IMG/VR virus record: IMGVR_UViG_3300047440_000715
Location: 1-28,459 of that record
Strand: one strand, 5' to 3'
DNA: 28,459 nucleotides
Source: a virus
Part shown: positions 1,268 to 16,255 of the stretch, in pieces
Layout: the number at the start of each line of letters is the position of its first letter
Numbering within the stretch: the first letter of the stretch is position 1
Program-made: the position numbers and the translations under genes
The notes under the pieces: model-generated
The model's input: the letters and a program-made list of their open reading frames with translations, nothing else
Database searches by the model: none
What the model was told of the DNA's origin: nothing

Positions 1268-2731
1268 TCAGATCAGGCCAAGGTCGGGATCTCCGAGGAC
1301 CGCGGCCGAGACGGAGCGCTTGTCGGCGAGCTTCTGGAGCACGTACTCGTCGATGGAGCGCTCTGCGACCAGGTCGACGTATGTGACCACCTTCTCCTGT
1401 CCGATGCGGTGGGCACGGTCCTCTGACTGCCGCCGGTCGGTGAGCGAGAAGGAGTTGCTGTAGTAGATGACGGTGCGGGCCTCGTTCAGCGTGAGGCCGA
1501 TCCCGCCCGCGCCGGGCTTGCCGACAAAGAAGCGGGAGGCACCCGAGTGGAAGGCTGCCTCCGACTCGGACCGCGCCTTGTCGTTGTCCCGGCCGTCATA
1601 CCGCACGGCCGTCTCGCCCGCCTTGCGGAGCGCCTCGAGCACCGCGTCGACCTCGGGGTCATAGCGGCACCAGATCAGGGCCTGACCGGGGTGGTCCTCG
1701 ATGACGTCGAGGAGCGCCCTGATCCTTGGGTTGGGCGTGGCCAGCGGCACGAGCCGGCGCTCATCGTCGTTGGGGATGTATCCAGACGTGACCTGCCCCA
1801 GTCGCGTCTGGAGGACGATCCGGAGCTCTGCCGTGGCGGTGGAGCCGTCCTCGAGGACGGCCATGAGCTCGTCCTTGAGCTGATCGTAGACCCGGCGCTG
1901 GCCGGGGGTCATCTCGAAGTAGACCCGGCAGCGGCCCTTCGGGGGGAGCTTCAGGACGTCGTCCTTGCGCAGCCTCGAGCCGTAGCGGAGGAGGACCTCA
2001 TTGAGCAGCGGCAGGTTGCGGTAGGAGTTGAGGTGCTTGAACTCGCGCCCCTGCTGCCCGTTCCAGCCGGTGGTCCACTCCCCGAAGAAGGACTTGAACG
2101 CAGCGAAGTTGGAGACGCCGAGCCCCGCCCAGGCCATCGGGTCGAGGAACCGCACCTGGGTGTATGCGTCGAAGGGGCTGTTGTCGACCGGGGAGCCGGT
2201 CAGGATGCGGCGGTAGGGGGCATGGCGGCCCATGGCCAGGATGCGGATGGTGCGCTTGGCCTTCGGGGTCTTGATCCGGTGGCCCTCGTCGACGCACATC
2301 AGGCAGCGCCTCGAGTCCAGCAGCTCCTTGGCGAGGTCGGAGCCGTCGTCGGTCATGACCGCGTCGTGGTTCATGGACAGCACCACGGGACCCTTGTGAG
2401 CAAGGAGCCCGCGGGCCTCCTCCTGGAACCCCTTGTTGCCGGACTTCTCGGAGCTCCAGGCCATCATCCGGAAGCGCTCGCGCACCGCGTCCGGCATGTG
2501 CTTCGGGATCTCCGTGCGGGTCCAGTTGATGTGGACACCGCGGGGTGCGAGGACCAGCAGCGCGTCGATCGCGCCCTCGTCGGCCAGGCTGGCGACGGTG
2601 TCGATGACCGGCTTGGTCTTGCCGACACCCGGGTCCCACCACTCCGCGCGGTCCTCGAGGGAGCGCGCAAGGTTGAACTCCTCGAGCTGGTGGGGGAGGG
2701 GCTCGGTCTTGAACTGGAACAACATCGGCAT
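1268..2731 (-). CDS. SNF2-family (superfamily 2) DNA-dependent ATPase/helicase
   Basis: A 487-residue protein with the superfamily 2 motifs in order. There is an HQ-containing segment near residues 14-15. Walker A reads DPGVGKTK at 33-40 with the lysine at 38. A Walker B box reads DEGH at 148-151 and is followed by RIKTPKAKRT. LTGSP at 177-181 is motif III. A C-terminal RecA-like lobe has GGIGLTLNEA at 409-418 and motif VI QSEDRAHRIGQ at 435-445. These proteins couple ATP hydrolysis to movement on duplex DNA; phage members are usually placed in replication, recombination or branch migration. The DEGH box is a variation on DEAH/DECH. ATG at 2731 is used here; a second ATG at 2725 is also possible, and neither has a strong Shine-Dalgarno site. 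The gene lies 19 bases after the small membrane protein gene, with no visible promoter. Confidence 0.93.
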   Translation of the reverse strand: MPMLFQFKTEPLPHQLEEFNLARSLEDRAEWWDPGVGKTKPVIDTVASLADEGAIDALLVLAPRGVHINWTRTEIPKHMPDAVRERFRMMAWSSEKSGNKGFQEEARGLLAHKGPVVLSMNHDAVMTDDGSDLAKELLDSRRCLMCVDEGHRIKTPKAKRTIRILAMGRHAPYRRILTGSPVDNSPFDAYTQVRFLDPMAWAGLGVSNFAAFKSFFGEWTTGWNGQQGREFKHLNSYRNLPLLNEVLLRYGSRLRKDDVLKLPPKGRCRVYFEMTPGQRRVYDQLKDELMAVLEDGSTATAELRIVLQTRLGQVTSGYIPNDDERRLVPLATPNPRIRALLDVIEDHPGQALIWCRYDPEVDAVLEALRKAGETAVRYDGRDNDKARSESEAAFHSGASRFFVGKPGAGGIGLTLNEARTVIYYSNSFSLTDRRQSEDRAHRIGQEKVVTYVDLVAERSIDEYVLQKLADKRSVSAAVLGDPDLGLI

Positions 2732-9658: not shown

Positions 9659-10960
9659 TCAGCCTTCCTTGATCGCCATGAAGCTGTACTGGGTCGTCCG
9701 GTTGCCGCCCTGGAACATCCGGTAGGTCGCGCCTCCCTGGAGGAGGCTGTCGTTGTTCGCCTCCCCTCCGGCCTGGCTCACCCAGAACACGGAGTCCATC
9801 TCCCCCCAGATGTCGAAGTCCGGGGCGAGGCTGAGCGTGACCGTGGCGGGCACGAGCCAGCGGATGGCCCCGCCGGAGTCGGGGGTCGGCTGGAGCTTCT
9901 CGGCCGCGGTCCCGGGGATCCCGGACTGCGGGGCGATGTTGTTCCAGTTGAAGATGCCGTCGCCCACGATGTTGTCCTCCGTCGCGGAGGGGAGCGCTGA
10001 CTTCCCGCAGGGGTACACCAGGTAGTCGGTGAACCCGGACCGGCTCGGGGAGCCTGTGTCCGAGGCAAAGCTGTTGCGCACGGAGACCCACACGCCGCTC
10101 GGGAGGCGGAGGTACGCTGGCCCGGTCTTCGATGTCAGGCCGATCATCTCGGTCAGCCCCGTGATGCTCGGGGCTGTCGTGTTGAAGAGGCAGTCGTGCC
10201 GCGCGGTCGCGCCCGCGACAAAGATGGGGTAGGGGAACTCGCTCGAGGTCCCGAAGGCGTTGAGGAACCCCGAGTAGCAGCTGGCGTAGTTGGTCGTGAT
10301 GGCGTCCTGGATCAGGAACACGCCGATGATCCGGCGGCCGGTGATGCTGAACCAGAAGCTGATCGGGAAGCTGTCCGTGGTCTTGAGGGGGACGTAGGCA
10401 CCGCCGGCCGTCGACGGGATCCCGTTGGGGCTGACCCCGGGCTGGAGCTCATAGTTGAGGCCGGAGTTGAAGCCGGTCATCGCAATCATGTCCCAGTTGT
10501 AGGCCGTGTTGCCGCCCCCGGCGGCCTGCTGGTACGTCTTGTACCCCACAAAGATCGTGTCGGAGCCAGAGCCGATCCCCTGGAGGATGATCTCCATCTC
10601 ACCACCGGGTGTGGTGTCGCGCACCGCGGTCCAGCCCGTGGCACTCAGCGAGAGGTTCAGGGTGCAGCCGGTCCCGACACCAGTCACAGCCGTCGTCGCG
10701 GCCGGGTTGGTCGGGTTGACGGTGTAGGCCCCGCCCTCATAGACCGCGACCGTGGCCACGGCAGAGCCGCTGATCGTGAGCACCTTGAAGGTCGCCTGGT
10801 ACGTGAACGTGCCGCCGGAGACCTTGATGATGTCCCCCACGGCATAGCCCGAGCCGCCGGCCCCGACGGTCGCGGTGTCGGCATGGTTGCTCGTGGCGAT
10901 GTTCACCAGGGCCCGGAGGAGGGTCTGGTAGTTGGTCGCGGTTCCGGTCTGCCACGTCAC
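9659..10960 (-). CDS. Tail structural protein, paralogue A, with inserted beta domain
   Basis: A 433-residue protein. The start is a GTG at 10960 forming GTGA with the tape-measure stop, with AGGAG about 6 bases upstream. It is a longer paralogue of the protein encoded at 8689-9657. Both begin MT[W/Y]QTGTAT, both have a GW segment after the first helix, and both end in a beta-rich tail (here QYSFMAIKEG). Relative to the shorter copy it carries an extra domain at residues about 31-106 with GSGY, GGTFT, YTVNPTNP and GVGTG, which recurs in the J-like tip protein. No enzymatic motif is visible. Likely a tail-tip or tail-decoration protein; its exact role is unknown. Confidence 0.85.
   Translation of the reverse strand: MTWQTGTATNYQTLLRALVNIATSNHADTATVGAGGSGYAVGDIIKVSGGTFTYQATFKVLTISGSAVATVAVYEGGAYTVNPTNPAATTAVTGVGTGCTLNLSLSATGWTAVRDTTPGGEMEIILQGIGSGSDTIFVGYKTYQQAAGGGNTAYNWDMIAMTGFNSGLNYELQPGVSPNGIPSTAGGAYVPLKTTDSFPISFWFSITGRRIIGVFLIQDAITTNYASCYSGFLNAFGTSSEFPYPIFVAGATARHDCLFNTTAPSITGLTEMIGLTSKTGPAYLRLPSGVWVSVRNSFASDTGSPSRSGFTDYLVYPCGKSALPSATEDNIVGDGIFNWNNIAPQSGIPGTAAEKLQPTPDSGGAIRWLVPATVTLSLAPDFDIWGEMDSVFWVSQAGGEANNDSLLQGGATYRMFQGGNRTTQYSFMAIKEG
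10643..10870 (-). other. Inserted beta domain in tail paralogue A
   Basis: Residues about 31-106 of the protein encoded at 9659-10960. The shorter paralogue next door passes directly from its first helix to its GW segment, whereas this copy has about 76 extra residues in between. The extra part matches residues 185-256 of the J-like tip protein in four ordered motifs. This makes an insertion in this copy more likely than a loss in the other. Confidence 0.65.
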
Positions 10961-13899
10961 TGGAGGCTCCTCTTGACTGCTTCCTTGTTCCTGGAGATGA
11001 TGTTCATGATGGCCTTCTCGCCCTCGCGTGTGCTGAGCGCCTTCGACGTCTTGTTGGGGTCGTCGACGTTGGTGATGTGGACGTGGACCTGCGGCGGTGC
11101 GACGTTGACGGGGGCCTGTCCACCTCCCAGCAGCCGGCGGGTCTGGTCACTCGGGATGACCCGACCCCCCTGACCACCCGGGTCGACTACCTCGGGACCG
11201 TTCTCACCCGCGATGAAGGGGTGCTTGCCGGAGTAGTCCCCGCCCTCGGCGAAGAAGAAGCCGCCTGCGATCTGGCTCGAGCTCAGTCCGAAGTTGGCGG
11301 CCCCTCCGCCACCGCCGAACAGCCCAGCGAGGAGACCGCCACCACCGCCGGCCCCTCCTCCACTGAACAGCTGCGACTCGGCCATCTGCAGGGCGATCTT
11401 GGCGATGTCCCCGAGGATCGAGGAGGCGAGCGAGGCGAAGTTGAGCTTGCCCGTCTGCACAAACTGGGTCAGGGCGTTGTTGGCGCTGTTGAAGGCCCCC
11501 ACCAGGGCGTTCTCCGCAGTGGTGGCGACGTCGTTCAGCTGCAGCTTGATCTTGTCGAAGCCGCGCGCCAGGCCCCCCTCGAGCGAGGTGTCGGTCTGTC
11601 GGGCAGCGAGGTCGACCTGCAAGAGCCCCCGGCTGAACTCCTCCGCACTGATCTTCCCCTGGTTGAACAGGACGTTGAGCTGCGTCTGCACGCCAGCGAG
11701 GTGCTCCTGGGGGCCCTGGAGGTTGTTCAGGACCTCCTGCTGGAGCGAGAGGACCGCGGCCCGCGCCCGCTCCTCACCCTGGAGCTGGTCGGTCAGCTCC
11801 TGGTGCTGAGCGGTCAGGTCGGTCAGCTGCTTGATCTCGTCCGTCGTCAGCGTCCGGCCAACGCTGTTCTGGGCCTGCATCAGCGTGATGGCAAGGGTGC
11901 GCTGCTCGTTGTTGAGCACCAGCAGGTCGTTCTCCTCCCCCATCTTGGCGAGGGTCTCGGCCAGGGGGCCCGCGGTGGGGCGCTCGTTCTGGGCACCCAG
12001 CTCGAACTTGCGGTCGAGCTCGGGGGGCACGGCCGGGCCCAGGGGGGTCTTCGAGGAGAGGGCCTGGTTGTACTCGAAGGCGCTGATCTTCCCCTGCTCG
12101 AGGAGCTTGGTCAGGGCCTCGACGCGCCGGGCATAGGCCTCCTGGGGCCCGTTGATCTCCTCGAGGACCTTGGCCTGCTCGGAGAGGGCCTGGCGGGTCT
12201 GGATCGCCTGCACGATGGCGAGGGCCTCGTTGCCGCTGAGCTTGCGGCCCTCGATCTCCTCGGCCTTGCGGAGCTCCAGGACGATCTCCCGCTGCTGGGC
12301 ATTGAACTTGAGGAGGTCGGTCTCACGCTGCAGGTTCTCGAGCTCGCCCGTGAGGCCACCGCTCCGGAGGACGCGGTTGTACTCCTCGACGGTGAGGGTC
12401 CCGGCCACGAGGAGCTCCGTGGCCAGCTGGACCCGGCGTGCGTACTCCTCCTGCGGCCCGCGGAGGTCCGTCAGGACCTTCGCCGAGTCCGTGAGGGCCT
12501 GGATGTTGCGGAGCCGGCCGGCCAGCTCATCCTTCTGGTCCGAGGTGAGGGTGATCCCGCTGGCCTGCAGCTTCTGGGTCGTCTCGAGGAGCTTGGTCTG
12601 GACCTCCCGCTCCTTGTTCCCGAGCTGCAGGATGCGGACCTGCTCCTCCAGGTTGCGGGTCTCATTGACCACGAGCTGGTCGAGCGCGGCGGACTTCTTC
12701 TTGGCGTCCGACACCTGCGTGTACTGGTCCTTGACCTTCCCGAGCTCGGAGGTGTAGCCCTCGAGGAGCGTGAGAGCACGCTGGTCGTCCGGGTTGGCCG
12801 CGAGGACCGCGCGCAGCGCCTTGATCTTGGTCTCGAGGAAGCCCATGCTCTGGCCGTAGGCCGTGAGCGAGGGGTTGGCCCCAGTCGTCTCCTCGTTGAG
12901 GGCCCGGACGTCGTCAGCCGCCTTGCCGATCGTGACACCGATCGAGCCGGCTGCGGCCCCGATCACGACGAGCGGGCCCAGAGCAGCCGCGCCGGCCGCA
13001 CCCATGAGCTGGAACCCCTCGGTGAGGGCCGTGGCCTTCGAGGCCAGCGCCCCGAACCGGACGAGGACCTCACCGCTGAGCAGGACGCCGAGCGCCGCGA
13101 GCGCCCCGCCCAGGGCATTGACGTGGTCCGCGAGGAACTGGATGCCCTCGGCGGCTGCGTGGGTGGCCCCGGTGCTCTCGTTGGCCGACGAGACGAACTG
13201 CTGGAAGTTGTTGCGCAGGTTGGTCATCGCCGAGTCCAGGGTCACAATGGTCTTCCCGAACTTGTCGTTGATCCCGTCGCTGGCAGCGAGCAGGGCGTTG
13301 AAGATCGCCTCGCCGCTGATCTTGCCCTCCTGGCCGAGGTTCTTGAACTCGCGCGAGGTAGCACCCAGCTGGGTCTCGAGCGCGGAGGCGAGGTCGGGGA
13401 AGTCCCGGAAGATCAGGCGCAGCGCGCGCGCGTTGAGCGTGCCGGTCTGGAGGGCGATCGACAGCTGGCCGACGATGCCGGTGAGGTCCTCGGACGTCCG
13501 CCCCTGGATGACCGCCTCCTGGTTCAGCGCCTTGGTGACCTGGAGGAGCTGGGCCTGGCTGAAGCCGACCTCCTGGTTGGCCCGCGCGAGCTTGGCGTAG
13601 ACGTCAGCGGTGGCGTTGAACGAGCCGCGGCTCTGCTCCGCGACCTGGAACAGGCTGGCAGTGACGGAGCGCAGGTCCTCCTCACTCGAGGTCAGGTTGC
13701 GGAGCCGGTTCTGGACCTTCTCATAGGACTCGACGAGGTCGAGGGCCTGGTGGGCGAGCTCATACAGGCCGACAGACTCGCCGATTGCGGTCAGGGCATT
13801 CCCGACCTCATCCAGCTCCGTCTTGACCTGTCCCAGTCCGGCCTTGGCCTCGGCGGGGTCGACCTTGACGACGATCCTGAACTCACTGCTGTCAGCCAT
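10957..13899 (-). CDS. Tape measure protein (lambda H-like)
   Basis: A 980-residue protein that sets tail length and is threaded through the tail tube. The N-terminus has EFRIVVKVDPAEAKAGLGQV, typical of tape measures. Residues about 125-220 contain the lambda H-like segment with LTGIVGQLSIALQTGTL and GKISGEAIFNALLAAS. Residues about 263-325 are hydrophobic and Ala/Gly-rich, the usual membrane-active region. Residues about 410-765 are long helices in three repeats. A Gly-rich patch lies at about 847-866, and the C-terminus carries FAEGGDYSGKHPFIAGENGPEVV, a hallmark of lambda-type tape measures. With about 0.15 nm per residue, the known scale, the tail would be near 147 nm. ATG at 13899 overlaps the end of the GT reading frame by 8 bases, so the two are coupled. 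The start has GAGAAG about 6 bases upstream. Confidence 0.95.
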   Translation of the reverse strand: MADSSEFRIVVKVDPAEAKAGLGQVKTELDEVGNALTAIGESVGLYELAHQALDLVESYEKVQNRLRNLTSSEEDLRSVTASLFQVAEQSRGSFNATADVYAKLARANQEVGFSQAQLLQVTKALNQEAVIQGRTSEDLTGIVGQLSIALQTGTLNARALRLIFRDFPDLASALETQLGATSREFKNLGQEGKISGEAIFNALLAASDGINDKFGKTIVTLDSAMTNLRNNFQQFVSSANESTGATHAAAEGIQFLADHVNALGGALAALGVLLSGEVLVRFGALASKATALTEGFQLMGAAGAAALGPLVVIGAAAGSIGVTIGKAADDVRALNEETTGANPSLTAYGQSMGFLETKIKALRAVLAANPDDQRALTLLEGYTSELGKVKDQYTQVSDAKKKSAALDQLVVNETRNLEEQVRILQLGNKEREVQTKLLETTQKLQASGITLTSDQKDELAGRLRNIQALTDSAKVLTDLRGPQEEYARRVQLATELLVAGTLTVEEYNRVLRSGGLTGELENLQRETDLLKFNAQQREIVLELRKAEEIEGRKLSGNEALAIVQAIQTRQALSEQAKVLEEINGPQEAYARRVEALTKLLEQGKISAFEYNQALSSKTPLGPAVPPELDRKFELGAQNERPTAGPLAETLAKMGEENDLLVLNNEQRTLAITLMQAQNSVGRTLTTDEIKQLTDLTAQHQELTDQLQGEERARAAVLSLQQEVLNNLQGPQEHLAGVQTQLNVLFNQGKISAEEFSRGLLQVDLAARQTDTSLEGGLARGFDKIKLQLNDVATTAENALVGAFNSANNALTQFVQTGKLNFASLASSILGDIAKIALQMAESQLFSGGGAGGGGGLLAGLFGGGGGAANFGLSSSQIAGGFFFAEGGDYSGKHPFIAGENGPEVVDPGGQGGRVIPSDQTRRLLGGGQAPVNVAPPQVHVHITNVDDPNKTSKALSTREGEKAIMNIISRNKEAVKRSLQ
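11605..12672 (-). repeat. Three internal protein repeats in the tape measure
   Basis: Residues about 410-765 of the tape measure hold three diverged repeats of roughly 100-145 residues. Each has a helical segment with an NKERE / NAQQRE / NNEQRT motif, a later GPQE motif at residues 481, 584 and 729, and then a short stretch of the type LLxxGxxSxxEYNxxL (LLVAGTLTVEEYNRVL; LLEQGKISAFEYNQAL; LFNQGKISAEEFSRGL). The third copy is the most diverged. Such repeats can lengthen or shorten the tail by unequal exchange. Confidence 0.8.
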
Positions 13900-14691
13900 C
13901 CTGGGCTTCTCTCGTCCTCCTGGCCTCCGCCTGGCGTTCCGCGTCGTGCCACTTCATGTAGGCCCCGTCCAGCGCACGGATGATGTGCACCAGCCCGTCG
14001 ATTATACCGGTGTCCAGTCCCGCGCGCTCCCCGTACAGCACAATACTGCTCCAGGGGATGGGGTACAGCCCCATCCCTGCCGCGCGCTCCGTGTCGAGCT
14101 CGCGGAAGGCCCGCATGTAGAACCCCTCGCCGGGGAGGAGCTCGGGCACATCGAGTGCCCAGTCAGGTGGCGGCTGTCCTCTGTGCTCGGCGACCTTGAC
14201 TTGCCAGCCGTCTCGCCGGTACTGCTCCTCCCAGAGGAGCCGCCTGGTCAGTTTTTTGCGGTGGCGTCGAGCTCGGCGGGGGCGGCCTCACGCGGCCCGA
14301 TGAAGTTGGCCGAGTTGGAGCAGAAGTCGCGGATGCGGTCGAAGATCCAGCCAGGCAGGGCGTCGAGGAAGGCGACGCAGTTGGCCCGCGTCCAGGGCAC
14401 CTCGTTGCCCGCGACGTCGAGCACACCCGACCAGCCGCGCACGATGTGGACTGCGAACAGCTCCTTGGCGAGCTCGCGCTGGAGCTCCACCGACTCGGCG
14501 CTGGCTCCCTTCTGGCTCAGCTCGCGGAGTGACTCCTTGGTCTGGGCCAGGAGCGCGTTGAAGTAGGTCTTGTTGGCCTCGGTCGCGGGGGCGACCTGGA
14601 GCACCGGCTCCCCGTCGAGCTGGGTGAGGCGGAAGGGGACGATGCTGTCGGGGGAGACGTTGAAGCGCTTGAGGTTGCTGAAGTCGACCAT
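13892..14691 (-). CDS. Tail assembly chaperone, frameshifted long form (GT-like)
   Basis: A -1 shift at the A AAA AAC site (14251-14257) would join the 147 residues of the short form to 119 more residues read in the -1 frame, giving about 266 residues ending at 13892. The added part begins LTRRLLWEEQYRRDGWQVKV and includes PELLPGEGFYMRAFRELD and GLDTGIIDGLVHIIRALDGAYMKWH. The downstream frame has no convincing start of its own, only a GTG at 14149 inside it, and stays open right through to the tape-measure start. That is the classic arrangement of lambda G/GT: the short and long forms together help load the tape measure and tube subunits. Only the segment after 14251 is unique to this product. 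Confidence 0.88.
14055..14077 (-). other. Inverted repeat inside the GT-specific coding region
   Basis: A perfect 9-bp inverted repeat, GGGATGGGG and CCCCATCCC, with a 5-base loop lies in the frameshift-extension coding region, about 150 bases before the tape-measure start. In minus-strand RNA it would form a strong stem. Because it lies in coding sequence (around residues GMGLYPIP) in very GC-rich DNA, it may be incidental. Confidence 0.3.
14224..14257 (-). promoter_or_regulatory. Programmed -1 ribosomal frameshift site with downstream stem-loop
   Basis: In the minus-strand reading the chaperone gene ends GCA AAA AAC TGA. The heptamer A AAA AAC (14251-14257) is in the exact X XXY YYZ phase needed for a -1 slip and sits immediately before the stop at 14248-14250. 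Ten bases further on is a perfect hairpin with GCTCCTC and GAGGAGC arms (7 bp) and a 3-base TGG loop at 14224-14240. The -1 frame then continues open for 119 codons. The spacer is slightly longer than the usual 5-9 bases. Efficiency cannot be judged from sequence. Confidence 0.88.
14248..14691 (-). CDS. Tail assembly chaperone, short form (lambda G-like)
   Basis: A 147-residue protein between the tail tube gene and the tape measure, the fixed position of lambda G. It starts MVDFSNLKRFNVSPDSIVPF, has a helical centre with NALLAQTKESLRELSQKG and ELAKELFAVHIVRGWSGV, and ends in a low-complexity stretch with AAPAELDATAKN just at the slippery site. Known role of this family: a chaperone that keeps the tape measure soluble and recruits tube protein during tail assembly; it is not in the finished virion. 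The ATG at 14691 directly abuts a long hairpin that also contains the only good Shine-Dalgarno sequence, so its translation is probably limited or switched. The family call rests mainly on synteny and the frameshift signal. Confidence 0.88.
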   Translation of the reverse strand: MVDFSNLKRFNVSPDSIVPFRLTQLDGEPVLQVAPATEANKTYFNALLAQTKESLRELSQKGASAESVELQRELAKELFAVHIVRGWSGVLDVAGNEVPWTRANCVAFLDALPGWIFDRIRDFCSNSANFIGPREAAPAELDATAKN

Positions 14692-14730
14692 GGGGTATAG
14701 CCCCTCCGAGGGCTGGAGGAACTATACCCC
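14692..14730 (-). promoter_or_regulatory. Start-adjacent hairpin sequestering the chaperone Shine-Dalgarno
   Basis: The 46-base gap between the tail tube stop and the chaperone start is almost entirely one hairpin. In minus-strand RNA the arms are GGGGUAUAGUUCCUCC and GGAGGGGCUAUACCCC. They pair over 16 consecutive positions, 14 Watson-Crick and two U-G, around a 7-base loop. The right arm contains the Shine-Dalgarno GGAGGGG and ends at the base just before AUG. The bases before it, CCUCCCG, could compete for the same Shine-Dalgarno. There is no U-tract after it, so it is not a standard terminator. The most likely effect is low or conditional translation of the chaperone compared with the tube protein upstream. 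Confidence 0.75.
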
Positions 14731-14737
14731 CGGGAGG

Positions 14738-16255
14738 TCAGGGCAGGTACGGGAACCCGCTGAAGCTGATGCTGTAGCCCAGGGTGGCGTCGATGAAGGC
14801 CTCGCACTTCTCCTGGATCGTCACCGTCTTGTAGCGCGGGAGGTTCAGCTTCCCGTCGCCGATGGTCATGGAGGGGATGTCCACGGCAACCCCACCGTCG
14901 CTGTTGCGGAGGATGAAGTCCATGGTCATCGTGGTGTTGTTCCGGATCGCCGACAGGAGGACGTCGGTGGTGAACAGCGCCTCCGCGTCGAGGTCGACGG
15001 AGAGGATCCCCACGTTCATGTACTTGGCCCCGAGGAGGGCCAGGATCTTCTCCGGCGTGACGCCGTTGTTGATCTTGAGGTCGACCTTCTTCCAGAAGGC
15101 GCTCTGGTCCACCTGGGTCGTCCCGTCGCGGAGGCTGAGCCGGATGATGTCCGAGCTCGTGCCGAAGCCGGCCGTCTGGACCGGCTGGACCGCGTTGTTG
15201 GCCCCGGTCGCGCGCACCGTCGTCGGGTTGGGCGTGTCCGTGCCGATGAACTTCATCTGCATGACCGCCTTGTCCGTCAGCGGGAGGTTGAACCCCATCT
15301 CGTTGGCGAAGTTGCCCTTGGGGTACAGGTACTCGTCGCCGGGGCCCGGGTTCTGCAGCCCGACCATCGAGGCCTCGAAGGTGAGGCTGCGCTCGACGAA
15401 CCGGGCATCATCGACCGGGACGTTGCGGGTGAACTGCCCGAAGAGGACATCGATCAGCTGGCCCGCCCCGGTGTCGGCCGAGCCGACGGTCCAGGAGCGC
15501 TTGTCGAGGGTGAGCAGGTGCGCAGCGACGGCCATGACCCGGGCGGTCCCGTTGTAGGCAGCCGTGGCGAACTGGTTGGCAGCGAGGGCCCCACCGATCT
15601 TGATGAACTGGCCGACCGTGAGGCCCAGGGTCGTGAAGTCGAGGACCGCGCTGGTCAGGTTCCCGTTGGCGTCCATCGAGATGTCGCCGACGGCACCGCG
15701 GACTCCGCACACCTCCACGGTGGCGTTCTGCCCCTGGGTCGGGGTCTCCGAGGCGGGGAGGGTCGACACCGCCACCGACGAGGTCGTCGAGCCCGCGGTC
15801 ACGACCCACAGGCCGTTGAGGGCCGCAGTCGAGAAGCCCCGCGCGAAGACGAGGCGGTTGGCGGGGACGGTCGATCCCACGATGGCCGTGTAGCTGAAGC
15901 CGGTCGCCGAGACGGCCGCCAGCGAGTCGAAGCCCGCGCCGCTCTCCAGGTGGATCGGGCCCGAGGTGTAGCCGGAGTGCGTGGCCAGGCAGATCGCCTC
16001 GCCGAAGTCGCGCACGGACTCCAGCGTGACGTCGCACTCGAACTCCACCGAGCTGTCGAGGTCGACGAGGATGCCCTTGCGCTTCTGGCGCTGCTTCGAG
16101 ATGGGCTGGCGGGCCACCTTCTTGATCTGGGAGCCGAGCGTGCCGTAGCTGTTGGGCTCGACGAGCTTCCAGTTGGGCGTGCCGCCCGCGAGCGTCCCCA
16201 GGCTCGCCTCGATGCTGTACAGGAGGGACGTGAACTCAGTCTGAACGCGGCTCAT
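14738..16255 (-). CDS. Major tail tube protein
   Basis: A 505-residue protein, large for a tube protein. The N-terminal (residues 1-100) and C-terminal (about 285-505) parts carry the tube fold: an early SRVQTEFTSLLYSIEASLGTL, then VARQPISKQRQKRKGILVDL, and later NEMGFNLPLTDKAVMQMKFIG and PSMTIGDGKLNLPRYKTVTI. Between them lies a roughly 180-residue beta-rich region with ANRLVFARGFSTAALNGLWV and TTLGLTVGQFIKIGGAL, which I recall from large siphophage tube proteins and which probably projects from the tube surface. The start is ATG at 16255, 11 bases after the terminator stop, with GTGAGG upstream at good spacing. Known role: hexameric rings stacked along the tape measure to form the DNA conduit. 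Confidence 0.92.
   Translation of the reverse strand: MSRVQTEFTSLLYSIEASLGTLAGGTPNWKLVEPNSYGTLGSQIKKVARQPISKQRQKRKGILVDLDSSVEFECDVTLESVRDFGEAICLATHSGYTSGPIHLESGAGFDSLAAVSATGFSYTAIVGSTVPANRLVFARGFSTAALNGLWVVTAGSTTSSVAVSTLPASETPTQGQNATVEVCGVRGAVGDISMDANGNLTSAVLDFTTLGLTVGQFIKIGGALAANQFATAAYNGTARVMAVAAHLLTLDKRSWTVGSADTGAGQLIDVLFGQFTRNVPVDDARFVERSLTFEASMVGLQNPGPGDEYLYPKGNFANEMGFNLPLTDKAVMQMKFIGTDTPNPTTVRATGANNAVQPVQTAGFGTSSDIIRLSLRDGTTQVDQSAFWKKVDLKINNGVTPEKILALLGAKYMNVGILSVDLDAEALFTTDVLLSAIRNNTTMTMDFILRNSDGGVAVDIPSMTIGDGKLNLPRYKTVTIQEKCEAFIDATLGYSISFSGFPYLP

Follow-up and report, generated by a model that had tools for sequence, protein, structure and literature searches.

A hairpin at the junction between the tail tube gene and the tail chaperone gene is a known and annotated kind of feature, judging from the annotations of two phages and a prediction in a third. 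In HK97 (NC_002167, 7443-7462), a putative terminator is annotated between the genes for the major tail subunit and the tail chaperone, and the record of Acinetobacter phage Loki carries a rho-independent terminator after the major tail protein gene, at the same junction. For SPP1, a terminator is predicted at 11,255-11,304, where the extended tube gene ends and ahead of the chaperone gene (PMC6316719). The mtp-gpG gap of TP901-1 also harbors a terminator-like hairpin with a U-run. The feature is not universal, since the V-G gap of lambda has a length of 15 nt and contains no hairpin. Beyond these terminator annotations, nothing on a class of hairpins at the tube-chaperone junction was found in a literature search whose scope excluded most subscription journals.

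Hairpins that sequester the Shine-Dalgarno sequence are a general form of translational repression by mRNA structure. In Cluster K mycobacteriophages, the ESAS elements are imperfect 17-bp inverted repeats adjoining start codons, and they occur, with the 13-bp SAS, in many copies per genome at non-structural genes (PMC3203893).

The DNA analyzed here, a viral stretch of 28,459 nt (the window), has a hairpin at the tube-chaperone junction of its tail operon, in the following arrangement.

14738-16255, minus strand: tail tube gene, 505 aa (Pfam PF18906 Phage_tube_2, 2e-21; PHROG 290)
14731-14737, minus strand: CCUCCCG spacer from the tube stop (UGA, 14740-14738) to the hairpin (sequence, folds)
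14692-14730, minus strand: hairpin of the tube-chaperone gap, 16 bp with a 7-nt loop (sequence, folds, stem-length control)
14703-14707, minus strand: GGAGG, presumed Shine-Dalgarno of the chaperone gene, wholly within the right arm of the hairpin (sequence; opening cost)
14248-14691, minus strand: tail assembly chaperone, upstream (G-like) part, 147 aa (PHROG 313, 3e-20)
14251-14257, minus strand: AAAAAAC slippery heptamer directly 5′ of the chaperone stop (sequence)
13892-14149, minus strand: second (T-like) tail chaperone frame (Pfam PF23812 Phage_TAC_18, 1e-12; PHROG 3817)
10957-13899, minus strand: tape measure gene (PHROG 3336, 8e-87; ORF coordinates)

These matches confirm the gene order given in the earlier note on this DNA, with a tube gene upstream and a tail chaperone downstream, and they place the hairpin, as that note held, between the high-copy tube gene and the low-copy unit of chaperone and tape measure. 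The tube protein shows 42-45% identity to the KPP23 and RDJL homologues. The chaperone AUG at 14691 is supported by the conserved N-terminus, which aligns with those of relatives, and the tape measure gene starts just before the second chaperone frame ends. The AAAAAAC heptamer, identical to the one carried by Loki (PMC5313236), is followed by a GCUCCUC-UGG-GAGGAGC hairpin, and this combination of heptamer and stem (minus strand 14257-14205) probably directs a -1 frameshift into the second frame, giving a chaperone fusion. Elsewhere in the window, a 13-bp perfect hairpin (minus strand 17069-17029) has the AUG of a neck/tail-completion gene (17056) within its 15-nt loop, and this AUG lies at an AUGA overlap with an ORF of about 60 aa located after the capsid gene. 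A SNF2-type helicase gene is found at 1268-2731 (minus strand), downstream of the structural region.

The sequence of the junction hairpin, read on the minus strand from 14730 to 14692, is GGGGUAUAGUUCCUCC-AGCCCUC-GGAGGGGCUAUACCCC, and its last base directly adjoins the chaperone AUG. The stem consists of 16 uninterrupted pairs, 14 Watson-Crick and two U-G, and together with the 7-nt spacer the hairpin fills the whole 46-nt gap; the stem, the loop, the end just before the AUG and the Shine-Dalgarno in the right arm are all as first described. The gap, taken as 50 nt, folds at -30.4 kcal/mol with the hairpin structure occupying 84% of the ensemble, and none of 200 dinucleotide shuffles was equally stable (z = -3.7). 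The comparison proposed in the earlier note, of the minus-strand RNA from 14780 to 14640 (141 nt) with shuffles, gave z = -2.8. Its claim of a strength beyond chance has to be qualified. The hairpin ranks second in 45-nt folding energy on the coding strand of the window, and shuffles of the whole window have 45-nt minima of -28.3 to -32.6; because DNA of this GC content (67.6%) attains similar minima after shuffling, the energy alone is not exceptional, as expected if the hairpin had arisen by chance in GC-rich DNA. However, its uninterrupted stem is the longest on both strands of the 28.5 kb window, while a stem of at least 16 pairs occurs anywhere in 2 of 60 whole-window shuffles. Since this longest stem sits exactly within the 46-nt gap, one of few gaps in the window, and since most relatives whose gap is comparable have a hairpin at the same junction, a chance origin is highly improbable. 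A fold-back made during assembly is also argued against by the two T-G positions, at which the arms are imperfectly complementary as DNA.

The element is present as a single copy: an exact 9-mer of the stem is confined to the hairpin. A search for the exact stem sequence in viral contigs gave three matches, each in unrelated coding DNA, and no Rfam covariance model matched up to E = 1. Thus the hairpin, a single copy in a structural operon, differs from the repeated SAS/ESAS elements of Cluster K. It does not have the form of an intrinsic terminator, a GC-rich stem followed by a U-tract, either: the sequence after the stem is AUGGUCGAC, with no U-run, and no terminator-like site was detected on the minus strand in a 19 kb scan. 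In this respect it differs from the hairpins of SPP1 and TP901-1 and resembles that of HK97, which likewise is strong and free of a U-tract and begins within a few nt of the tube stop. The HK97 hairpin is nevertheless shorter (8 bp, -15.6 kcal/mol) and stops about 10 nt short of the chaperone AUG, leaving the bases before the AUG unpaired. In Loki and TP901-1, unlike in the window, the Shine-Dalgarno is separate from the hairpin.

The likeness to the sequestering hairpins lies in this position of the Shine-Dalgarno, which in the predicted fold is paired in the right arm of a stable stem. GGAGG is the sole Shine-Dalgarno candidate of the chaperone gene; its distance to the AUG, 11 nt, is longer than the usual optimum, and its role is therefore presumed. 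Opening the region around the chaperone start is predicted to cost about 23.5 kcal/mol, and the next highest value among the relatives tested is 13.8. Two intergenic gaps of similar length in the same operon, those preceding the scaffold gene and the capsid gene, reach only -7.5 and -4.8 kcal/mol and are nearly unstructured with GGAG exposed. The expectation that the hairpin would limit chaperone initiation is thus consistent with the buried candidate and with the two open gaps, although the repression is a predicted one, and no ligand, temperature or protein input is known for this hairpin. A further proposal, that the CCUCCCG spacer competes for the Shine-Dalgarno and makes a two-state switch, did not hold: the competing fold, in which CCUCC pairs with GGAGG in a partial transcript, reaches -16.7 kcal/mol, far weaker than the final hairpin at -30.4, and it cannot be the ON state because GGAGG is paired there too.

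Hairpins at this junction are widespread. The survey covered 80 viral contigs from a profile search with the tube protein and nine named phages, and 67 distinct tube-chaperone gaps, that of the window included, were folded. A hairpin of -10 kcal/mol or lower was found in 45 of the 67, and one of -15 kcal/mol or lower in 43, counts that overstate the number of independent events since some contigs are near-duplicates. All strong hairpins (-15 kcal/mol or lower) are in the longer gaps: 43 of 48 gaps of at least 46 nt have one, and none of the 19 gaps under 40 nt. After addition of 13 more named phages to the survey, the best of the 50-nt windows downstream of the tube stop was ranked against the positions of its locus. 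The median rank was 2.4% of positions for gaps of at least 40 nt and 91% for gaps under 40 nt, which are unusually unstructured. In these further and diverse named phages, a hairpin follows the tube gene in 12 of 13, and the exception, PaP007, has a short open gap. The hairpins of relatives start 3-59 nt after the tube stop (7 nt in the window), and their sequences appear unrelated from lineage to lineage. In four of the surveyed gaps (L049, L028, L020, L092), the hairpin is followed by a C-rich leader with no recognizable Shine-Dalgarno before the chaperone AUG.

With a strong hairpin in the gap, tens of nt or less from the tube stop, the window belongs to this group. It departs from a usual, though not strictly defining, trait, namely that the hairpin is clear of the chaperone start. 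The hairpins of relatives mostly exclude the Shine-Dalgarno and end no closer than 14 nt to the AUG; among 36 relatives whose gaps measure up to 250 nt, this distance is 14-82 nt, compared to 0 nt in the window. A function shared with relatives therefore cannot require occlusion of the Shine-Dalgarno. The statement that no described element of this form was known at this site is thus not supported, junction hairpins being widespread and annotated; the unusual part of the window hairpin is its overlap with the Shine-Dalgarno and the AUG. A large tube-chaperone gap hairpin that ends about 6 nt before the AUG was noticed in L112, near 12050-12175; its capsid protein is 65% identical to that of the window phage, and L112 is a possible second start-adjoining case.

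Close relatives of the window were sought by the tube, chaperone, tape measure and capsid proteins, and the contigs obtained either are truncated within the chaperone gene or the capsid gene, or have diverged junctions; the relatives that span the junction have a tube-protein identity of at most about 50%. Compensatory change could be seen in one clade. RDJL1, 2, and 6, Roseobacter phages, have a 14-bp hairpin without a U-tract in the same gap, but it is unrelated in sequence to that of the window, ends 31-34 nt before the AUG and leaves a separate GGAGA. In six RDJL-type sequences, all 18 pairs are kept (100% of cells paired) and six pairs are altered on both sides, a covariation that greatly exceeds the shuffled and slid controls (none of 500 shuffles matched it), in a small alignment whose tested structure was derived from the same sequences. 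This pattern argues that the pairing is under selection in at least one lineage. The earlier note had looked to related phages for paired bases and compensatory changes. Distant relatives do mostly carry a gap hairpin, although theirs do not hide the start, and the compensatory changes belong to the RDJL clade, the window hairpin having no close relative at the junction. In the RDJL-type hairpins (L008, L009, L010, L034, L041, L058), the loop region has an invariant GUCGGGG, which could pair with CCCCGAC just downstream, forming a possible pseudoknot. In the RDJL phages, S0112 and R6L (L008-L010, L012, L013), the PHROG 290/Phage_tube_2 homologue is labelled “major capsid protein,” probably a misannotation.

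There are several ways to explain these hairpins. A transcription terminator or attenuator, whose U-tract was lost or is unneeded in the host and whose overlap with the Shine-Dalgarno is incidental to a compact gap, would agree with the HK97 and Loki annotations, with the SPP1 prediction and with the classical U-tract forms in TP901-1 and several relatives. The annotated HK97 hairpin, likewise lacking a U-tract, can be read both ways: it shows that such a form has been called a terminator, and, together with the few U-rich 3′ flanks, it suggests that this label may be wrong for many of the hairpins. In only 11 of the 43 strong survey hairpins do the 8 nt beyond the stem include at least four U, and most, including that of the window, have no U-tract. 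Full termination would moreover shut off the chaperone and tape measure genes. The terminator is thus an unlikely explanation for the window, if the strongest of the alternatives. A 3′ stabilizer that shields the tube message from exonuclease, or an RNase processing site, with start occlusion as a side effect, would be in keeping with hairpins located 3-59 nt after the tube stop, not conserved in sequence, mostly devoid of a U-tract and usually leaving the Shine-Dalgarno outside. The usual form, in which the stem follows the tube gene and does not include the Shine-Dalgarno, fits a role in partial termination, in processing or in protecting the 3′ end. Why the window hairpin extends exactly to the AUG is left unexplained by stabilization or processing, which we consider improbable as the whole account of this locus.

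Recoding was also considered, in which the hairpin stimulates recoding at the tube stop to give a C-terminally extended tube protein. The UGA-C context and the 7-nt spacer are suggestive of it, and SPP1 extends its tube protein via a +1 frameshift at CCCUAA (PMC6316719), while the tube gene of the window ends with CCC UGA. But a +1 shift would add four residues only, readthrough would append 149 residues of low complexity, encoded in another frame in DNA shared with the chaperone gene, and the spacing between stop and hairpin ranges over 3-59 nt in relatives. Recoding was rejected because the predicted products are implausible, and is the least credible of all the explanations.

The preferred reading, to which we give a probability of roughly 0.5, is that the post-tube hairpin favors the tube over the chaperone and tape measure, in the window by closing the chaperone ribosome-binding site at least partly. 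The recurrent hairpin just 3′ of the tail tube gene would favor the abundant tube protein over the downstream genes on the same transcript, and the variant in the window would add start occlusion to this usual stem. Without a U-tract, the window hairpin most likely acts on the mRNA and not as a classical terminator. By its predicted stability, a block of 23.5 kcal/mol would nearly silence the presumably essential chaperone gene unless coupling or kinetics relieve it. The closed ribosome-binding site may open on rare occasions, either while the RNA is being transcribed or when the lower stem is melted by ribosomes that terminate at the tube UGA, 7 nt upstream, some of which reinitiate. Given the ribosome footprint, termination at the UGA could disrupt about three to four pairs at the base of the stem. 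In folding, the hairpin minus these pairs retains about -16 to -19 kcal/mol, and low-level escape is therefore expected rather than free coupling. Both the lowered chaperone translation and its relief by coupling are inferred. A further role of the hairpin may be to shield the tube message at its 3′ end, an effect on mRNA stability that is likewise conjectural.

In a broader and quite tentative form, fast-evolving hairpins that keep their position after the tube gene and lack a U-tract might set the tube:chaperone:tape-measure ratios post-transcriptionally across many siphophages, the lineage of the window having turned this hairpin into a lock on the chaperone start, opened mainly by ribosomes at the tube stop. 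Siphophages need many tube subunits and few chaperones and tape measures from adjacent genes. A recurrent hairpin at that junction, often without terminator features, points to a simple control point for tail stoichiometry, and the version in the window suggests control at the level of translation initiation.
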